DNA of 64,000 nt from Marixanthomonas spongiae (GTDB lineage: Bacteria > Bacteroidota > Bacteroidia > Flavobacteriales > Flavobacteriaceae), in NCBI RefSeq assembly GCF_003095375.1, contig NZ_QEHR01000004.1, positions 1 to 64,000 on the forward strand, given 5' to 3'. The notes under the pieces are model-generated. The model made no database searches, was not told the origin of the DNA, and saw only the letters and a list, made by a program, of their open reading frames with translations. Positions 2,936 to 11,794 of this stretch are shown piece by piece. Positions within the stretch are counted from its first letter, which is position 1, and each line of letters starts with the position of its first letter. The position numbers were made by a program, and so were the translations under genes.

Positions 2936-5035
2936 ATGGCAAGGCAGATAAACGTTGCGCTTATTGGCAACCCAAATACCGGAAAAACCTCGGTGTTCAA
3001 CCGCTTAACGGGCTTGAACCAAAAAGTGGGCAACTATCCCGGCATTACCGTTGAAAAAAAGCAAGGGGTTTGCAAATTAGACCGCGGATTAAAAGCCCAC
3101 ATAATCGATCTTCCCGGCACGTACAGCCTTAATGCCTCTTCAATAGATGAAAATGTAGTGATTGAGTTGTTGCTCAACAAAAACGACAAAGATTTCCCCG
3201 ATGTTGCCGTGGTTGTGGCCGATGTGGAAAACCTAAAGCGCAACCTGTTGCTGTTCACACAAATAAAAGATTTGGGCATCCCCACCATTCTGGCAGTGAA
3301 CATGGCAGACCGCATGAAACGCAAAGCCATTTCACTGGATATCGAAAAGCTGGAAGCACAACTGGAAACCAAAATAGCCTTGGTAAGCTCCCGTAAAAAC
3401 GAAGGCTTTGACCATCTTAAAGAATTGATCAGCAACTACAGCTTGCTTTCCACAAAACCTTGCGTCAACGCTTCCCGAATGTCTCCAGATTATTTTGATA
3501 GACTTCGCAAAGCATTTCCCAATCAAGATCTCTACAAACTCTGGTTGGTCATTACACAAGACGTGAACTTCGGAAAACTGAACCGAAAAGAGCTAAAAGA
3601 AGTAAACGGGTTCCAGACCGAATCCAAAAGCAACCTGAAACGGCTTCAGCAAAAAGAAACCATTGCCCGGTATCAATTTATCAACAATGTTTTAAAAGAC
3701 ACCCTTACCATAGACACCGCTAATGCCAAAGACTTCAGGAGCCGGGTGGACCGGGTCTTGACGCATAAAGTGTGGGGATACGTTATTTTCTTTGCCATCC
3801 TATTGCTCATATTCCAAGCGATTTTCGACTGGAGCAGCTATCCCATGGATTTTATCGATACCACTTTCGCCTCCTTGAGCGAATGGGTTAACGAAACCTT
3901 GCCACCAGGGGATTTTACCAGTTTAATTGCCGAAGGGATCATCCCAGGTATTGGCGGTGTGGTCATTTTCATTCCGCAGATTGCTTTTCTGTTCCTTTTT
4001 ATTTCCATTTTGGAAGAAACCGGCTATATGAGCCGCGTGGTCTTCTTGATGGACCGCGTTATGCGCCGGTTTGGCCTGAGCGGGAAAAGTGTGGTACCGT
4101 TGGTTTCGGGTACTGCCTGTGCCATCCCAGCGATTATGGCCACGCGAAACATTGAAAATTGGAAAGAACGATTAATCACCATCTTGGTGACACCCTTCAC
4201 CACCTGTTCGGCACGGTTGCCGGTGTACCTCATCATCATTGCTTTGGTTATCCCCGATGAGCGTGTTTTGGGGATATTCAGCCTACAAGGGATTACATTA
4301 ATGATTATGTATTTAATAGGTTTTGGTGCTGCCATAGGTTCGGCTTGGCTCTTGGATAAGTTTATGAACATTCCGGGACGTTCCTTTTTTGTCATCGAAA
4401 TGCCCAATTATAAAATGCCGCTTCCCAAAAACGTGTTGATTACCGTAGTGGAAAAAACAAAAGCCTTTGTATTGGGCGCTGGTAAGATTATCTTGGCCAT
4501 TTCCATCATTCTTTGGGTGCTGGCCTCGTACGGTCCAGGGAGATTTGATCAAGCCGAAGAAATAGTTGCTGCCGAAAACAGCGGTCAAAACCTCACCGAA
4601 GACGAATTGGACACCAAAATCGCTTCTTTTAAGCTGGAACACTCGTATATTGGCATTATGGGAAAAGCCATTGAGCCTGCGGTACGGCCCCTGGGCTACG
4701 ATTGGAAAATCGGGATCGCCATTGTGAGCTCGTTCGCTGCCCGTGAAGTATTCGTGGGGACGCTTGCCACCATTTACAGCGTGGGGAGCGATGAAGAAAA
4801 AACCATTAAAAACCGAATGGCCGCCGAAACAAACCCCGTTTTGGGAACCCCATTGTTCAATTTCGCCAGCGGCGTGTCGTTATTGCTCTTTTATGCTTTT
4901 GCCATGCAATGTATGAGCACCTTGGCCATTGTGAAGAAAGAAACCAACAGTTGGAAATGGCCCCTGTACCAATTAGTTATTATGAGCGGAATTGCGTATA
5001 TTTTAGCCTTGGCAGCTTATCAATTGCTTAAATAA
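2936..5035 (+). CDS. feoB: Ferrous iron transport protein FeoB
   Basis: A 699-residue GTPase-linked inner-membrane permease that imports Fe(II). The N-terminal G domain shows G1 GNPNTGKTS (11-19), G3 DLPG (58-61) and G4 NMAD (122-125). The C-terminal half is polytopic and contains the gate-like motifs PLVSGTACAIPAIMATR and TPFTTCSARLPVY typical of FeoB. It is shorter than the 773-residue E. coli protein, mainly at the C-terminus, as is usual in Bacteroidota. It follows feoA directly and is followed by a small Cys-rich membrane protein, giving a complete feoA-feoB-partner unit. Confidence 0.97.
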   Translation: MARQINVALIGNPNTGKTSVFNRLTGLNQKVGNYPGITVEKKQGVCKLDRGLKAHIIDLPGTYSLNASSIDENVVIELLLNKNDKDFPDVAVVVADVENLKRNLLLFTQIKDLGIPTILAVNMADRMKRKAISLDIEKLEAQLETKIALVSSRKNEGFDHLKELISNYSLLSTKPCVNASRMSPDYFDRLRKAFPNQDLYKLWLVITQDVNFGKLNRKELKEVNGFQTESKSNLKRLQQKETIARYQFINNVLKDTLTIDTANAKDFRSRVDRVLTHKVWGYVIFFAILLLIFQAIFDWSSYPMDFIDTTFASLSEWVNETLPPGDFTSLIAEGIIPGIGGVVIFIPQIAFLFLFISILEETGYMSRVVFLMDRVMRRFGLSGKSVVPLVSGTACAIPAIMATRNIENWKERLITILVTPFTTCSARLPVYLIIIALVIPDERVLGIFSLQGITLMIMYLIGFGAAIGSAWLLDKFMNIPGRSFFVIEMPNYKMPLPKNVLITVVEKTKAFVLGAGKIILAISIILWVLASYGPGRFDQAEEIVAAENSGQNLTEDELDTKIASFKLEHSYIGIMGKAIEPAVRPLGYDWKIGIAIVSSFAAREVFVGTLATIYSVGSDEEKTIKNRMAAETNPVLGTPLFNFASGVSLLLFYAFAMQCMSTLAIVKKETNSWKWPLYQLVIMSGIAYILALAAYQLLK

Positions 5036-5797: not shown

Positions 5798-6457
5798 TTA
5801 TAACGTTTGAACATACAGGTTCTCGGCTGTCTTTTTTGAAATGAACGATTGATCCTTTCCTACCAAAATAACCATGGAGCCATCGAAAAACTCCTTGCCC
5901 AGCACTTTAATTTTAGTGCCAATGGTGATGTTCTTCTTGTCTAAATACTGCAGGAATTCTGGGCTGGATTCTTTCACGCCAACGCAAACCCCGCCTTGGT
6001 TTTTCTTTAGTTCGGCCAATAGTTTTTTCGCTGTTTGCTTGATGGTTCCATCCTTACTGGGAATGGGTTCGCCGTGGGGATCAAAATCGGGCTCCCCTAA
6101 AAACCGTTCCAGCCGGGCAATAAGTTCTTCGGAATGCACATGCTCCAACTGTTCGGCTATTTCGGCAACTTGGTCCCAGTGAAAGTGCAGCTTTTCCACC
6201 AAAAAAACTTGCCACAAGCGATGTTTTCGTATAATTTGTAAGGCCGATTTGGTTCCTTCATTCGTAAGGGTAACGCCGCGGTACCTTACGTAATGCAGCA
6301 GCTCTTTTTCAGCCAAACGTTTTACCATGTCGGTGGCCGAAGAAGGTTTGGTCTCCATCCGTTGCGCCAAGGCATTAGTGGTAACGCCTGTATCGGAAGC
6401 TTGTTCTAAGTGATAGATTGCTTTTAAGTAATTTTCTTCGGAAGGGGACAATTTCAT
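5798..6457 (-). CDS. DtxR/MntR family metal-dependent transcriptional repressor (paralogue 1)
   Basis: A 219-residue repressor. The N-terminal winged helix (about 1-70, MKLSPSEENYLKAIYHLEQ) is followed by a dimerisation/metal-binding domain containing HLEHVHSEELIARLERFLG and DPHGEPIP, which supply the His/Glu/Asp ligands of DtxR proteins, and a C-terminal FeoA-like SH3 domain (about 145-219). The first ATG is chosen; a TTG two codons earlier is possible. A perfect palindrome TATTTAG-N6-CTAAATA lies 23 bases upstream and probably autoregulates it. It shares its plan with the second DtxR gene at 11.1 kb. The metal sensed (Fe or Mn) cannot be decided from sequence. Confidence 0.93.
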   Translation of the reverse strand: MKLSPSEENYLKAIYHLEQASDTGVTTNALAQRMETKPSSATDMVKRLAEKELLHYVRYRGVTLTNEGTKSALQIIRKHRLWQVFLVEKLHFHWDQVAEIAEQLEHVHSEELIARLERFLGEPDFDPHGEPIPSKDGTIKQTAKKLLAELKKNQGGVCVGVKESSPEFLQYLDKKNITIGTKIKVLGKEFFDGSMVILVGKDQSFISKKTAENLYVQTL

Positions 6458-6480
6458 CTGCAACTATTTTACAACATCAA

Positions 6481-7062: not shown

Positions 7063-8223
7063 TCATCCCCTAAAAAGGAAAAACCGGTCTTTCAATTCTT
7101 CGATAGCCGTTTCTTTATTGGTGGTAATGTATTTTAAGGCTTCGTCTGTAAATTCCTGTCCTTTTTCGGTAAGGGAAACGATATTTTCTGAAATATGAAT
7201 CAGGTTGTTTTTTGTAGCCAGTTCCAACACCGTTTTGGCCTTAACCTTTTCCCAGTTAATGTGTTCCTGTAAATGGTTCACGTGGCGTTCTTCTTTTTCT
7301 TGATGATTTTGCAAATGCAATAGAAACACCAATAAAGACACTTCTATACGTTGTTGCCTTTCTTTGTAAAATACTGAAAACACGCCTTGTTTAGGCGCAA
7401 AAAGGTACACCAAAAGAAATACAACCCCCAGCATCGTGGTCATAGAACCGGCAATGGAGGCATCAAGCGCATTCGCAACCCAATACCCTGAAATGGCAGC
7501 AAAAATCCCGAAGAAACAACTTAACAATAACATTTTCTTTAGGTCGTCGGTCAATAAATAGGCGGTTGCGGGCGGGGCAATGATAAGTGCAACCACCAAA
7601 ACCGCCCCTACGGCATCGAAAGCGCCCACAATGGTAACCGAGGAGACCGTCATTAACCCGTAATGCAGCAACAAAGGCGAAAAACCAAGGGTAGCGGCAA
7701 GACCTTTATCGAAGGTGCTCAATTTAAGTTCTTTGAAAAACAAAATCAGCAGCGTGAGGTTGATCACCAAGATGGTACCTATCACCCAAAGTGATTTTGG
7801 GCCTATATCGGTATCGCCTACAATAAGGTGGTCAAAAGGGGCAAAAGCCAGTTCGCCCAGCAACACCGCGTCTATATCCAAATGAACGTCATTGGCGTGT
7901 TTTGCAATCAATATCACACCTATGCTAAAAAGAGCGGGGAATACCAAGCCTATCGCGGTATCTTCTTTTACCAAGCCGGTTTTTTGAATGAATTCGACCA
8001 AAATCACGGTGACCACACCAGTTACGGCAGCCAATAAAATTAAAAGGGGCGAATTGAGGTCTTGGGTGATAAAAAAGCCTACCACAATCCCCACCAAGAT
8101 GGAGTGGCTAATGGCATCACTAATCATGGCCATTTTCCGAAGTACCAAAAACACGCCTGGAATGGCACAGGCAACGGCGACCAAAGCGGCGATAAGTTGT
8201 ATTTCCAATTGTGCGTTAGTCAT
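7063..8223 (-). CDS. Metal ABC transporter permease (ZnuB/TroD-like) with winged-helix-like tail
   Basis: A 386-residue protein. Residues about 1-275 form the 8-9 helix ABC-3 permease of zinc/manganese/iron importers (SDAISHSILVGIVVGFF, FDAVGAVLVVALIIAPPATAYLL). The remaining 110 residues are soluble: a charged, histidine-containing helix and then a segment ending NNLIHISENIVSLTEKGQEF that resembles the recognition helix and wing of winged-helix repressors. The start chosen overlaps the upstream permease stop by 8 bases, showing translational coupling; a start 7 codons earlier is less likely. Two different permeases imply a heterodimeric channel. Confidence 0.88.
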   Translation of the reverse strand: MTNAQLEIQLIAALVAVACAIPGVFLVLRKMAMISDAISHSILVGIVVGFFITQDLNSPLLILLAAVTGVVTVILVEFIQKTGLVKEDTAIGLVFPALFSIGVILIAKHANDVHLDIDAVLLGELAFAPFDHLIVGDTDIGPKSLWVIGTILVINLTLLILFFKELKLSTFDKGLAATLGFSPLLLHYGLMTVSSVTIVGAFDAVGAVLVVALIIAPPATAYLLTDDLKKMLLLSCFFGIFAAISGYWVANALDASIAGSMTTMLGVVFLLVYLFAPKQGVFSVFYKERQQRIEVSLLVFLLHLQNHQEKEERHVNHLQEHINWEKVKAKTVLELATKNNLIHISENIVSLTEKGQEFTDEALKYITTNKETAIEELKDRFFLFRG

Positions 8224-9331
8224 GATCGGTTCCCATTTTAACATACATAGATTCGGCTTCTTGAAAGCCTTTTTCGGTTAAAGCCCATTGATTGCCTTCC
8301 ACACGGATTAAGTGTTGCTCTTCCAGTTTCGTCAACGTTTTTCGGGTAAACCCTTGAAAGTTGTTCAAAATACGGATAGCATGAGGGTGCGAAATGTTAT
8401 CGTGCTCCTTGGCAATACGGTACATAAAGGTGAGCGTTTTCTTTAAATGAAGTTCCCTTCGGTTTTTACGGAAACGAAGCTCCCGGAACAACAGTCCACG
8501 CCTAGGCGAAAAAATAAAGGAAAGCAACACAAAAGCCGCGGCCACCAAAACAATAACCGGTCCTGTTGAAAGGTTGTCCTGGCTCGCACTGATGGCGGTT
8601 CCGAAAACCCCTGAAAAAGCCCCGAATATCGATGCCAAAACAATCATCACCCCCAAATTATTGGTCCATTGCCTGGCCGCAGCTGCTGGAGCCAACAACA
8701 TAGCGCTCATAAGTACTACCCCAACGGTTTGCAGGCCAAGCACAATGGCGACTACAATAAAACTGGTAATCAAAATATCGAGAAAACGGGTGTTGAACCC
8801 CAAGGTTTTGGTGTAATCGGGATCAAAGAGCAATAGTTTCAGTTCTTTCCAGAAAAGAAGCAAAACGATAAGACTAACCCCAGTAACAGCGGCCATAACC
8901 CAAACATCCTCTTCTACCAGTGTGGCGGCTTGCCCAAACAAGTATTTGTCCAGCCCGGCTTGATTGGCATTCGGCATTTTCTGGATAAAGGTCAATAACA
9001 GCATCCCCAGACCAAAAAAGAGCGAAAGGATCAATCCCAAGGCCGTATCGTTTTTCAAGCGGGTGCGTTTTACGATGCTTTTAATCCAAAACGTACCGAT
9101 CAAGCCACTTATTAAAGCCCCAACTAAAAACAAATGTTCGTTCTTTACACCAGTAATAATAAAGGCAATGGCAATCCCGGGCAGGGAAGCGTGCGAAATG
9201 GCATCGCCCAAGAGACTCTGTTTGCGCAATACCGCAAAACTGCCCAACATACCGCAAATAGCTCCAAGCACGGCAGTGCCCAAGGTTATCGTGCGCAAGG
9301 TATAATTGGTAAAAAAGTCTGTTAGTTCCAT
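8216..9331 (-). CDS. Metal ABC transporter permease (TroC-like) with winged-helix-like tail
   Basis: A 371-residue partner of the next permease. The ABC-3 membrane domain covers about 1-280 (GDAISHASLPGIAIAFIITG, GLQTVGVVLMSAMLLAPAAAARQ). The C-terminal 90 residues are soluble and look like a winged helix, with TLTKLEEQHLIRVEGNQWAL followed by TEKGFQEAE, close to the pattern in DtxR/MarR proteins. It lies in the order lipoprotein, ATPase, permease, permease, downstream of a DtxR gene, and overlaps the next gene. The tail may sense metal or gate transport rather than bind DNA, since it is tethered to the membrane. Confidence 0.9.
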   Translation of the reverse strand: MELTDFFTNYTLRTITLGTAVLGAICGMLGSFAVLRKQSLLGDAISHASLPGIAIAFIITGVKNEHLFLVGALISGLIGTFWIKSIVKRTRLKNDTALGLILSLFFGLGMLLLTFIQKMPNANQAGLDKYLFGQAATLVEEDVWVMAAVTGVSLIVLLLFWKELKLLLFDPDYTKTLGFNTRFLDILITSFIVVAIVLGLQTVGVVLMSAMLLAPAAAARQWTNNLGVMIVLASIFGAFSGVFGTAISASQDNLSTGPVIVLVAAAFVLLSFIFSPRRGLLFRELRFRKNRRELHLKKTLTFMYRIAKEHDNISHPHAIRILNNFQGFTRKTLTKLEEQHLIRVEGNQWALTEKGFQEAESMYVKMGTDHD

Positions 9332-9366: not shown

Positions 9367-10107
9367 TTATTTATTCACCGCCACCTTGTAATTAATACCA
9401 TAGGTTTTGGTAAGGTTATCGTCGTTAAAAATATCCTTTACAGGGCCCGAGGCAATTCCTTTTACATTTAAAAAAGTTACCCAATCAAAATATTCCGGTA
9501 CGGTTTGCAGGTCGTGATGCACGACAATCAAGGTTTTGCCGGCTTTACGCAGTTCTTTTAAGATATTGATGATTGCTTTTTCGGTAGTAGCATCGACTCC
9601 CTGAAAGGGTTCGTCCATCAAATAAATAGATGCGTTTTGCACCAACGCCCTTGCTAAAAAAATGCGTTGCTGCTGCCCACCGCTCAACTGGCTTATTTGC
9701 CTGTCCCTAAATTCCAGCATGCCTACTTTTTCCAAAGCCTCCAAGGCTTGTTTTTTTTCTTTTTGCCCGGGTCGTTTTATCCAACCCAAGCTTCCGTAGG
9801 TGCCCATCATCACCACATCGAGTGCGATGGTTGGGAAATCCCAGTCCACACTGCCTTTTTGTGGCACGTACGCCACCTTATCCACTTGCTTTTTATACGG
9901 TTTGCCAAAAACTTGTACGCTACCGGCAATGGGTTTTACAATTCCTAAAATTGATTTTATAAGAGTAGATTTACCAGCTCCGTTTGGCCCAACGATTGCC
10001 ATGAGCACCCCTTCGGGGATGACGAGGTCTATATCCCACAAAACCGGTTTATAATTATAGGCTACGGTAAGGTCGTCAATTTTTATGGCGTAGGGTTCCT
10101 CTCTCAT
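9367..10107 (-). CDS. Metal ABC transporter ATP-binding protein (ZnuC/TroB-like)
   Basis: A 246-residue ATPase that powers the two permeases downstream. It shows Walker [10 protein letters not shown], the ABC signature LSGGQQQR, Walker [13 protein letters not shown] and the switch histidine in LIVVHHDL. The ATG giving [13 protein letters not shown] is chosen; an upstream TTG would add 9 residues. It lies 28 bases after the lipoprotein gene in the same operon. Sequence resembles the zinc/manganese/iron class, and substrate cannot be fixed from this subunit. Confidence 0.93.
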
Positions 10108-10135
10108 TATATGGTTTTTTTTTGTGTGCAACAAC

Positions 10136-11047
10136 CTATTTCAATGCTTCCACGATTGTTTTTACGTTATAAGTGAACATTCCTATATAAGTCCCTTCTT
10201 TTGTGCCGGCATTGCCCAAGGCATCAGAATAAAGCGTACCGCCTATTTCCACTTGAAATCCTTCGGCCTTTACTGCTTGTTGTAAGGCTTCGATGGTTCG
10301 CCTTGGCACACTGGTTTCCACAAAAATCGCTTTTACCTTTTTCTCAATGATTAATTGGGCCAAATTTTGCACGTCTTGCACGCCCGCCTCGGTTGCTGTG
10401 GAAAGACCTTGCAGGCCAACGACTTCAAAACCATATTCCCTTCCGAAGTAATTAAAAGCATCGTGGGCAGTGACCAAAATGCGTTTTTCTTTGGGCAAAG
10501 TGGCAATGGTTTCGCGCACCTGTTTATCGAGGGCATCCAGTTTTTTAAGGTAGGCGGTTTTATTTTTTTCGAAATATGCGGCGTGAGCGGGATCCAGTTT
10601 GCTGAGTTCTTGGGTTAGGTAGGTGGTGATTTGTTTCCAGTACGCAATGTTGAACCAAATATGCGGGTCGTAACTGGAAGCAAAATATTCAGAACCTATC
10701 AGCCCTTTTTTGTCCAACACTTCGGCAAGTGCAATGGTGTTGCTGTTTCGGCCCATTTTTTCGAATACGTCGACTAATTTTCCTTCTAAGTGCAGACCGC
10801 TGTAAAACACTACATCGGCACGGGTCAATTTTGAAACGTCCCCTTCGCTGGCTTTATACAGGTGTGGGTCCACCCCGCTGCCCATCAAGCCTTGAACGCT
10901 AATGGAATCACCGCCAATATTTTTTACCAGATCGGTAATCATCGTAGTGGTGGTAACTACATTCAACTTCCCATTGGCACTGTTATTGCTGTTTTTGCAG
11001 CTTACCAACAATGTGAGGCACAATAAAAGCGGAAGTATTTTTTTCAT
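10136..11047 (-). CDS. Metal ABC transporter substrate-binding lipoprotein (ZnuA/TroA/MntC family)
   Basis: A 303-residue cluster A-I binding protein. The start [17 protein letters not shown] gives a lipoprotein signal with lipobox LVSC; an earlier in-frame start would put 24 residues before the signal. Likely metal ligands are in [32 protein letters not shown] and the Asp of GTLYSDALG, the usual three-His-plus-acid set. The His-rich loop typical of zinc-specific ZnuA is absent, which favours Mn or Fe over Zn. It starts 68 bases after the dtxR stop on the same strand and is probably co-transcribed with it. Confidence 0.93.
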
Positions 11048-11115
11048 AACTGAAATTTCAAGTTTTAGTTTAGTATACGTTGAATCAACAGGCGATGGGC
11101 AAATTATCACTAACT

Positions 11116-11769
11116 TCAATCTTCAACATAAATGTTATCGGTCGCGGTTTTTGATAGCAGCACCTGCCGTTTTCCAACTTGTACCGTCATACTTTCATCA
11201 AACGATTGTATTTGCATGACTTTCATCTCGGTATGCATCCCTATATCTTGATCGTCCAAAAATTTCAAGAAGGCAGAAGAAGCATCGTTAAACCCTTTGC
11301 ACACGCCTTTTTGACCTTCTTTTAGCTGTGAAAGTCTTTTTTTAGGTGCCTTGGGCAGGTTTCCACTGGCGTCGGGGATAGGGTCGCCGTGGGGATCATA
11401 AGCAGGGCGGCCCAAAAAACGGTCCAGTTCTTCCACCAATTTTGGCGAACGGATATGCTCCAACTGCTCTGCCACTTCGTGCACCTCATCCCAGTTGAAG
11501 TTTAAGCGTTCCACTAAAAAAGATTCCCATAGCCGGTGCTTTCGTACCACGGTCAAAGCTTGTTTTCTTCCGGTTTGAGTCAATTGCACGCCATAGTATT
11601 TTTTATAGTCAACCAAGTTTTTATTGGCGAGCCTTTTTATCATTTCGGTCACCGATGCGGCTTTGGTTTCCAACAATTCGGCGAGCGCACTGGTGGACAC
11701 CCCTTCTCCAGCTTCTTCCTGCAGATGGAAAATAGCTTTCAAGTAATTTTCTTCAGATTGGGTAAACAT
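11116..11769 (-). CDS. DtxR/MntR family metal-dependent repressor (paralogue 2), first gene of the metal importer operon
   Basis: A 217-residue paralogue of the repressor at 5.8-6.5 kb with the same order: winged helix (MFTQSEENYLKAIFHLQ), metal/dimerisation domain (HEVAEQLEHIRSPKLVEEL, DPHGDPIP) and C-terminal FeoA-like domain. Three in-frame starts exist. A GTG lies inside the -7 promoter element (11787-11794), so the ATG at 11769, or the one at 11778 as a near-leaderless start, is more credible. It heads the lipoprotein-ATPase-permease-permease genes and is divergent from a TonB receptor, with an operator-like site between them. Confidence 0.93.
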   Translation of the reverse strand: MFTQSEENYLKAIFHLQEEAGEGVSTSALAELLETKAASVTEMIKRLANKNLVDYKKYYGVQLTQTGRKQALTVVRKHRLWESFLVERLNFNWDEVHEVAEQLEHIRSPKLVEELDRFLGRPAYDPHGDPIPDASGNLPKAPKKRLSQLKEGQKGVCKGFNDASSAFLKFLDDQDIGMHTEMKVMQIQSFDESMTVQVGKRQVLLSKTATDNIYVED

Positions 11770-11786
11770 ATTTTTCATATACAGCA

Positions 11787-11794
11787 CAAAGATA
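11787..11794 (-). promoter_or_regulatory. -7 promoter element of dtxR paralogue 2 and importer operon
   Basis: The minus strand reads TATCTTTG (TAnnTTTG) 17 bases before the chosen start codon. The adjacent operator-like dyad (11820-11833) is about 25 bases upstream, near the -33 region. Confidence 0.5.

Follow-up and report, generated by a model that had tools for sequence, protein, structure and literature searches.

Predicted DtxR-like winged helices on both permeases of a Bacteroidota metal importer: a possible paired regulatory domain

We have analysed a metal importer of Marixanthomonas spongiae (Flavobacteriaceae, Bacteroidota) encoded within 64,000 nucleotides of contig NZ_QEHR01000004.1 (positions 1-64,000, hereafter the window). 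Its two permeases, P1 and P2, lie at 7,063-9,331, and each continues past its membrane part into a tail that is predicted to be a winged helix and that points, by profile comparison, to DtxR-type regulators. The importer belongs to a clade in which both permeases are tailed in this way and histidines have become fixed in both tails. We tentatively propose that a repressor module has here been converted into a paired regulatory domain on the cytosolic side that binds metal and feedback-inhibits the importer, a reading we place a little short of probable. The permeases and tails are as follows.

8216-9331, reverse strand: P1, ABC-3 metal permease with a predicted C-terminal winged helix, 371 residues (Pfam ABC-3, 1.6e-75)
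7063-8244, reverse strand: P2, ABC-3 metal permease with a predicted C-terminal winged helix, open reading frame of 393 residues (Pfam ABC-3, 1.4e-47)
8219-8485, reverse strand: P1 tail as modelled, residues 283-371, predicted winged helix (AlphaFold2 mean predicted local distance difference test, pLDDT, 90.1; VIA-align; hhalign)
7066-7374, reverse strand: P2 tail as modelled, residues 291-393, predicted winged helix and C-terminal extension (AlphaFold2 mean pLDDT 80.9; VIA-align; hhalign)
8318-8344, reverse strand: predicted recognition helix of the P1 tail, residues 330-338 (model secondary structure)
7210-7248, reverse strand: predicted recognition helix of the P2 tail, residues 333-345 (model secondary structure)

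Beyond the last membrane helix P1 runs on for 97 residues and P2 for 111, in agreement with the roughly 90-110 soluble residues described in a first-pass annotation of this DNA. AlphaFold2, supplied with alignments of 64 tails (P1) and 42 tails (P2), models both as a compact domain in which three helices are followed by a wing of two strands and a closing helix. In tail numbering, the P1 model has helices at 2-25, 37-42, 48-56 and 71-87 with strands at 60-63 and 66-69, and the P2 model has helices at 2-23, 27-30, 34-38, 43-55 and 70-85 with strands at 59-62 and 65-68; confidence in the P2 model is low over approximately the last 20 residues. The motifs that the first-pass annotation had likened to a recognition helix and wing fall on those elements in both models. 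The P2 of the window and of two relatives (L006 and L107) also has a C-terminal stretch ending in FFLFRG (window 7066-7125), which is missing from the seven other P2 compared.

Structural comparison places both predicted domains among winged helices, resembling structures of the DtxR and MarR types, as the first-pass annotation had expected. VIA-align was run on the 1,000 best Foldseek chains, and in the 50 rows listed for each tail almost every protein is a winged-helix regulator or contains such a domain, a few of those for P1, such as a mitochondrial ribosome protein, not being regulators. Against the DtxR-like structure 2h09, the P1 tail scored Z 8.9 (root-mean-square deviation 2.5, 84 residues aligned) and the P2 tail Z 10.3 (4.3, 97 aligned), and the P1 tail matched Bacillus subtilis MntR (2f5c) at Z 8.4 (2.4, 75 aligned). 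MarR and PadR proteins match equally high, and structure alone therefore does not allow a choice of family. Foldseek on its own reached no E-value under 0.001 with either tail, the best being 0.012 (P2) and 0.042 (P1).

Profile-profile comparison (hhalign, with E-values that refer to single comparisons) points more specifically to DtxR. The P1 tail gave 2.7e-13 against the long tails of related permeases described below as type I and 8.5e-7 against soluble DtxR regulators, with a weaker match of 2.6e-4 to the winged helix alone of those regulators, and the type I tails themselves matched soluble DtxR regulators at 1.8e-37. The P2 tail matched the type I tails at 1.4e-7 and the P1 tails at 2.9e-7, and its best match among the profiles tried was a family of membrane-anchored DtxR-FeoA proteins (1.9e-9); its link to DtxR thus runs through the type I tails and the anchored proteins. 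In controls with shuffled columns (four comparisons, each shuffled 20 times), the lowest E-value was 0.01. Given these E-values and controls, we suggest a DtxR descent that is direct for the P1 tail and traced through intermediates for the P2 tail.

Other searches were less informative. Pfam gave no Fe_dep_repress match in whole P1 or P2 and only sub-threshold matches when the tails were searched alone, and NCBIfam, run on the whole proteins, did not recognise the tails; this silence means little, because structure and profile comparison do recognise them. Searched against solved structures, the P1 tail profile found a ribosomal protein first (0.0027) and the metalloregulator ScaR at 0.054, and the P2 tail profile a MarR protein (0.048) and an iron-dependent regulator (0.52), matches too weak to use. 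Over the tail, a whole-P1 profile that included type I rows did match DtxR proteins, SloR among them, with E-values from 2.7e-4 to 9.9e-3.

The window represents one of two importer designs that we found in Bacteroidota, the phylum to which genome searches were restricted. Relatives came from 198 and 395 genomes (overlapping sets), 80 named loci (the best 80 of 574 relatives) and 40 further stretches; the resulting 184 sources (183 loci and a stretch of the window) yielded 146 distinct P1 with a complete frame once duplicates over the last 200 residues had been merged. In type I, represented by 26 of the 146, P1 carries a long tail made of a winged helix and the DtxR metal-binding and dimerisation domain, and all four type I P1 that were scanned with Pfam, out of the 26, matched Fe_dep_repr_C (6.2e-25 to 4.7e-20). 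The motifs HRLWE and AE..EH, whose residues we take to be the metal ligands of this domain, are kept in 26 of 26 aligned type I tails, with the first Glu changed to Asp in two. Where the type I P2 could be seen (16 of the 26), it never carried a tail: 11 end 16-38 residues past the anchor, L030 and L031 have P2 of 299 residues, and in L023, L025 and L027 the second permease has a frame of 303-318 residues.

Type II, the design of the window, comprises 119 P1 with a winged helix only, and its P2 carries a winged-helix tail of its own in 115 of the 116 loci in which the P2 end was seen (P2 is cut by the end of the stretch in L037, L098 and L143). L107 is counted among these 115 two-tail pairs, its P2 being split into two reading frames. 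A tree of P1 containing all 26 type I rows, 26 of the 119 short-tail P1, the tailless P1 of locus L158 and four P2 rows put type II, including L158, on one side of a branch with support 100/99; the P2 outgroup rows fell on the other side, together with type I. The topology therefore indicates that type II is derived and arose once. A paired winged helix had been called unusual by the first-pass annotation, and the pairing of two tailed permeases does mark a single importer clade. A statistical dependence between P1 and P2 tails was considered and dropped, as the tree shows one event.

Six type I rows (L033, L163, L164, L165, L166 and L168) cluster with the P2 rows on the tree and therefore may not be true P1; L165 had been placed with type I P1 though its profile labelled it P2, and none of the six is among the 16 loci with P2 seen. 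In L033, L166 and L168 the permease tail is 223 residues long and extends past the DtxR metal domain, and on the tree these permeases lie closer to P2 than to other P1. Searches of the available flank of these three loci recognised no P2, ATPase or binding protein.

Judged by sequence, type II is without the classical DtxR metal site and dimer interface. P1 and P2 of the window end before the metal-binding and dimerisation domain (Fe_dep_repr_C, with its His and Glu ligands), for which Pfam gave no match, and hhalign against the metal domain of the regulators gave E-values of 0.04 (P1 tail) and 0.09 (P2 tail). Other residues are fixed instead, here counted over 115 type II pairs including the window and, for P2, numbered on the 393-residue open reading frame.

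8402-8404, reverse strand: P1 His310, His in 115 of 115
8381-8383, reverse strand: P1 His317, His in 115 of 115
7315-7317, reverse strand: P2 His310, His in 115 of 115
7303-7305, reverse strand: P2 His314, His in 115 of 115
7288-7290, reverse strand: P2 Glu319, Glu in 114 of 115
7261-7263, reverse strand: P2 His328, His in 111 of 115, Glu in three and Asp in one

Among the type I tails, His occurs at the column of P1 310 in one of 26 and at that of 317 in none, and within three columns of these positions in five and three of 26, respectively. In 20 representatives of less than 60% identity (window included), 7 of 97 tail residues are invariant in P1 and 8 of 111 in P2; five of these 15 are His, as compared with a mean His content of the tails of 3.8% and 6.4%. 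At P2 328, His is exchanged solely for Glu or Asp, the pattern that would be expected of a metal ligand. The presence of fixed His in both type II tails and their absence from type I P1 tails make a new metal site plausible. The first-pass annotation had suggested that the tails sense cytosolic metal; sensing by the DtxR mechanism is not supported, since metal site and dimer interface are absent, and metal sensing through such a new site is how the suggestion may survive.

The same residues admit a structural explanation, which we consider unlikely though to be taken seriously: the tails would be assembly domains that join P1 and P2 as a heterodimer or brace the ATPases, with the invariant His, Trp and Gln forming an interface that holds no metal. 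Trp349 in P1 and Trp331 in P2 are as invariant as the His, both partners have invariant residues, and the near-universal pairing of tails in type II would suit such a role. The restriction of P2 328 to His, Glu or Asp is more in keeping with a metal ligand than with an interface, however, and type I importers have no P2 tail in any of the 16 loci where P2 was seen. Alternatively, the His might form an exit or chaperone site that gathers the ion leaving the pore and passes it on, with the pump unregulated. The fixed His count for this reading too, and the tails directly continue the last membrane helix, but a winged helix derived from a regulator would be an odd relay, and we judge this very unlikely.

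The recognition helices offer a further indication of changed function. Their conservation is below that of the whole tail in P1 (0.47 versus 0.51, a small difference) and in P2 (0.40 versus 0.55), whereas a diverse set of 16 soluble DtxR regulators drawn from the same loci shows the opposite (0.68 versus 0.58). This variability fits a loss of DNA reading, although the operators may differ among species too. Additionally, a soluble DtxR regulator is encoded in the available flank of 71 of the 80 named loci. Thus, the tails are not required as repressors, gene control being covered separately.

These data bear on the possibility that the tails act as membrane-tethered or released transcription factors, binding and repressing the operon promoter either from the membrane or after cleavage, as in the YtgCR system of Chlamydia. 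The type I relatives, as permease-repressor fusions that keep the metal domain of the repressor, lend this some weight, and in Chlamydia the repressor part is cut from YtgC and binds its own promoter, according to the available portion of a review (PMC5599777). Type II, however, does not have the domain that senses metal and dimerises in DtxR proteins, its recognition helices are the poorly conserved part of the tail, and the soluble regulator already adjoins in most of the named loci; we hold a role of this kind to be decidedly unlikely. The type II tails could also be decaying remnants of a repressor domain with no present role, as the P1 tails are shorter than those of type I and the recognition helices vary. 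Their retention in all but one of the type II pairs with P2 end seen, with unchanging residues, and the presence on P2 of a tail that type I P2 lacks make decay barely credible.

To our knowledge, little is known in this importer family of a fast stop of Mn, Fe or Zn import that would act ahead of gene regulation. Under the regulatory reading that we prefer, a repressor domain fused to P1 would have been trimmed to its winged helix in the clade of the window and a second winged helix added to P2. Each importer, consisting of one P1 and one P2, would then have a built-in pair of winged helices that no longer reads DNA. The pair would bind cytosolic metal through His310 and His317 of P1 and His310, His314, Glu319 and His328 of P2, and the helical connection between each tail and the final membrane helix would pass the signal on, so that permease and ATPase are locked or freed. 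We infer the direction of the effect to be inhibitory, such that ample cellular metal would hold the pump by feedback (trans-) inhibition. In a fuller version, which we find doubtful, one event made a DNA-binding metal repressor into a heterodimeric sensor within the importer, whose winged helices contact each other, share or flank a His-rich site and switch transport off directly.

The position of the tails is compatible with such coupling. Net charge directly past the last membrane helix averages +5.7 in P1 and +3.1 in P2 over the 115 pairs, as would be expected if the tails lie on the cytosolic side. In the related manganese importer MntBC of Bacillus anthracis, the last permease helix was modelled as running on into the cytoplasm, and truncating this cytosolic extension abolished transport (PMC8487065, available portion); by analogy, the tails of P1 and P2 would be located on the corresponding stretch. 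An Asp-His-Asp triad proposed to bind Mn in MntBC (PMC8487065, same portion) has its counterpart in D43, H47 and D95, which are invariant in both P1 and P2 of the 20 representatives. As both permeases keep the triad, neither looks like a dead subunit.

Several observations weigh against a paired metal-sensing domain. The P2 tail matches whole DtxR regulators weakly (6.9e-4) and the winged helix of these regulators, taken alone, hardly at all (0.43). The tails are less conserved than the membrane part, in which 64 of 274 residues are invariant in P1 and 57 of 282 in P2, and the recognition helices retain a slight positive charge on average (+1.2 and +0.5, versus +2.1 in the regulators). A structural role, or one in a protein interface, could also account for the invariant His and Trp. 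As type II has a single origin, the pairing of tails counts as one event kept across a large clade and not as a repeated correlation. Nor is the pair strictly obligatory, because two loci hold one tail each: in L138, possibly a damaged gene, P2 ends without a tail and the P1 tail keeps its His residues, and in L158 P1 has no tail and the P2 tail keeps its residues. L158 and L138 are natural tests of whether a single tail is sufficient.

Set among known systems, type I is the YtgCR kind and type II is a variant of it with a second winged helix and newly fixed residues. YtgC-YtgR of Chlamydia (CT069) and other permease-repressor fusions are encoded in metal importer operons and combine a TroC-kind permease with a DtxR-like domain at its C-terminus, the design that we see in type I, and have been reported in 11 phyla (PMC5599777, in the part available). 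Unlike these, P1 of the window is without the metal-binding and dimerisation domain, the defining feature of the fusions, P2 is tailed too, and both tails have newly fixed His. PsaBC (7kyp) and MntBC share the permease family and the Asp-His-Asp triad with the window importer, and in MntBC the last-helix extension is needed for transport (PMC8487065, as far as available); in contrast to their homodimeric permeases, the window importer has two different permeases with a winged helix after the last helix of each. Paired permease tails were not found in the titles and abstract openings of the papers listed by searches of the open-access literature, a body of text that leaves subscription papers mostly outside and in which the relevant papers listed concern YtgCR.

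A functional parallel may lie with the trans-inhibited importers MetNI and ModABC, in which an added pair of cytosolic domains senses the imported substrate; in those systems the sensor domains are on the ATPases (PMC10710835, available portion), whereas those proposed for the window importer would be carried by the permeases and have a DNA-binding regulator as their origin. In the ATPase of the window importer, Pfam found no additional domain besides ATPase-type matches, and regulatory domains on the ATPase in the style of MetNI and ModABC are absent. If the proposal is true, a transcription factor has become an allosteric transport domain and a DNA reading head a transport gate. The lineage can be traced from the repressor on a permease (type I) to paired winged helices with newly fixed His (type II), only a handful of residues would have to be mutated, and published assays exist for a related importer.

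The membrane-anchored proteins that link the P2 tail to DtxR form a family in their own right (L182:2280-3302, L183:1165-2244 and L194-L213, of which L194 and L208 duplicate the L182 and L183 positions). We reached it through weak matches beyond the permeases. Its members have one membrane helix, a linker like the end of P1, a winged-helix stretch, a DtxR metal domain and two FeoA domains, as assigned by Pfam on two members, with the winged helix itself being just a weak match. Matches below 1e-57 occurred in 25 of the 198 genomes; 20 include the membrane helix and five begin at residue 31-36. In all 20 loci fetched, a FeoB GTPase-like frame immediately follows the gene; in 18 of these a second FeoB-like frame lies beyond the first (within the available stretch), and in 19 the neighbour on the opposite side is a soluble DtxR regulator.

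Like the permease tails, the anchored proteins place a winged helix after a membrane helix and linker resembling those at the permease end. They differ in being separate proteins that keep the metal and dimerisation domain and bear two FeoA domains, and they are possibly an unrecognised Feo regulator or a substitute for FeoA. Together with the permease tails, they suggest that DtxR-like modules became linked to membrane metal transporters on more than one occasion, with an intact soluble regulator alongside. We considered whether PgMntR of Porphyromonas, a protein with two FeoA domains, is of the anchored type, and dropped the idea because its gene has 933 bp, the purified protein is a dimer, its DNA-binding domain occupies residues 13-65 and the word transmembrane is absent from the available part of the report (PMC4805248).

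The remaining genes of the locus complete the importer and its surroundings.

9367-10134, reverse strand: ATPase subunit of the same importer, 255 residues (Pfam ABC_tran, 2.9e-31)
10136-11119, reverse strand: substrate-binding protein of the ZnuA family (Pfam ZnuA, 1.9e-81)
11116-11787, reverse strand: soluble DtxR/MntR-type regulator with complete metal domain and FeoA domain (Pfam Fe_dep_repress, Fe_dep_repr_C, FeoA)
5798-6463, reverse strand: second soluble DtxR/MntR-type regulator (Pfam Fe_dep_repress, Fe_dep_repr_C, FeoA)
2936-5035, forward strand: FeoB (Pfam)

The importer is thus flanked on both sides by soluble DtxR/MntR-type regulators with FeoA domains (5798-6463 and 11116-11787). 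The top NCBIfam match of the ATPase is a Mn/Fe importer ATPase, with a score under the cut-off of that model. Both permeases pass the ABC-3 family cut-off of 20.1 bits, P1 with 254.4 and P2 with 162.8 bits. Among the matches listed, close relatives at this locus come from other Flavobacteriaceae, for instance Cellulophaga and Maribacter, with 84% identity in P1. The probable start of P2 is the eighth codon of its open reading frame (8223), because relatives align from that codon; this would give 386 residues, as in many relatives, and lower the P2 residue numbers used here by seven. With that start the P1 and P2 genes share eight bases (8216-8223), an overlap that suggests coupled translation.

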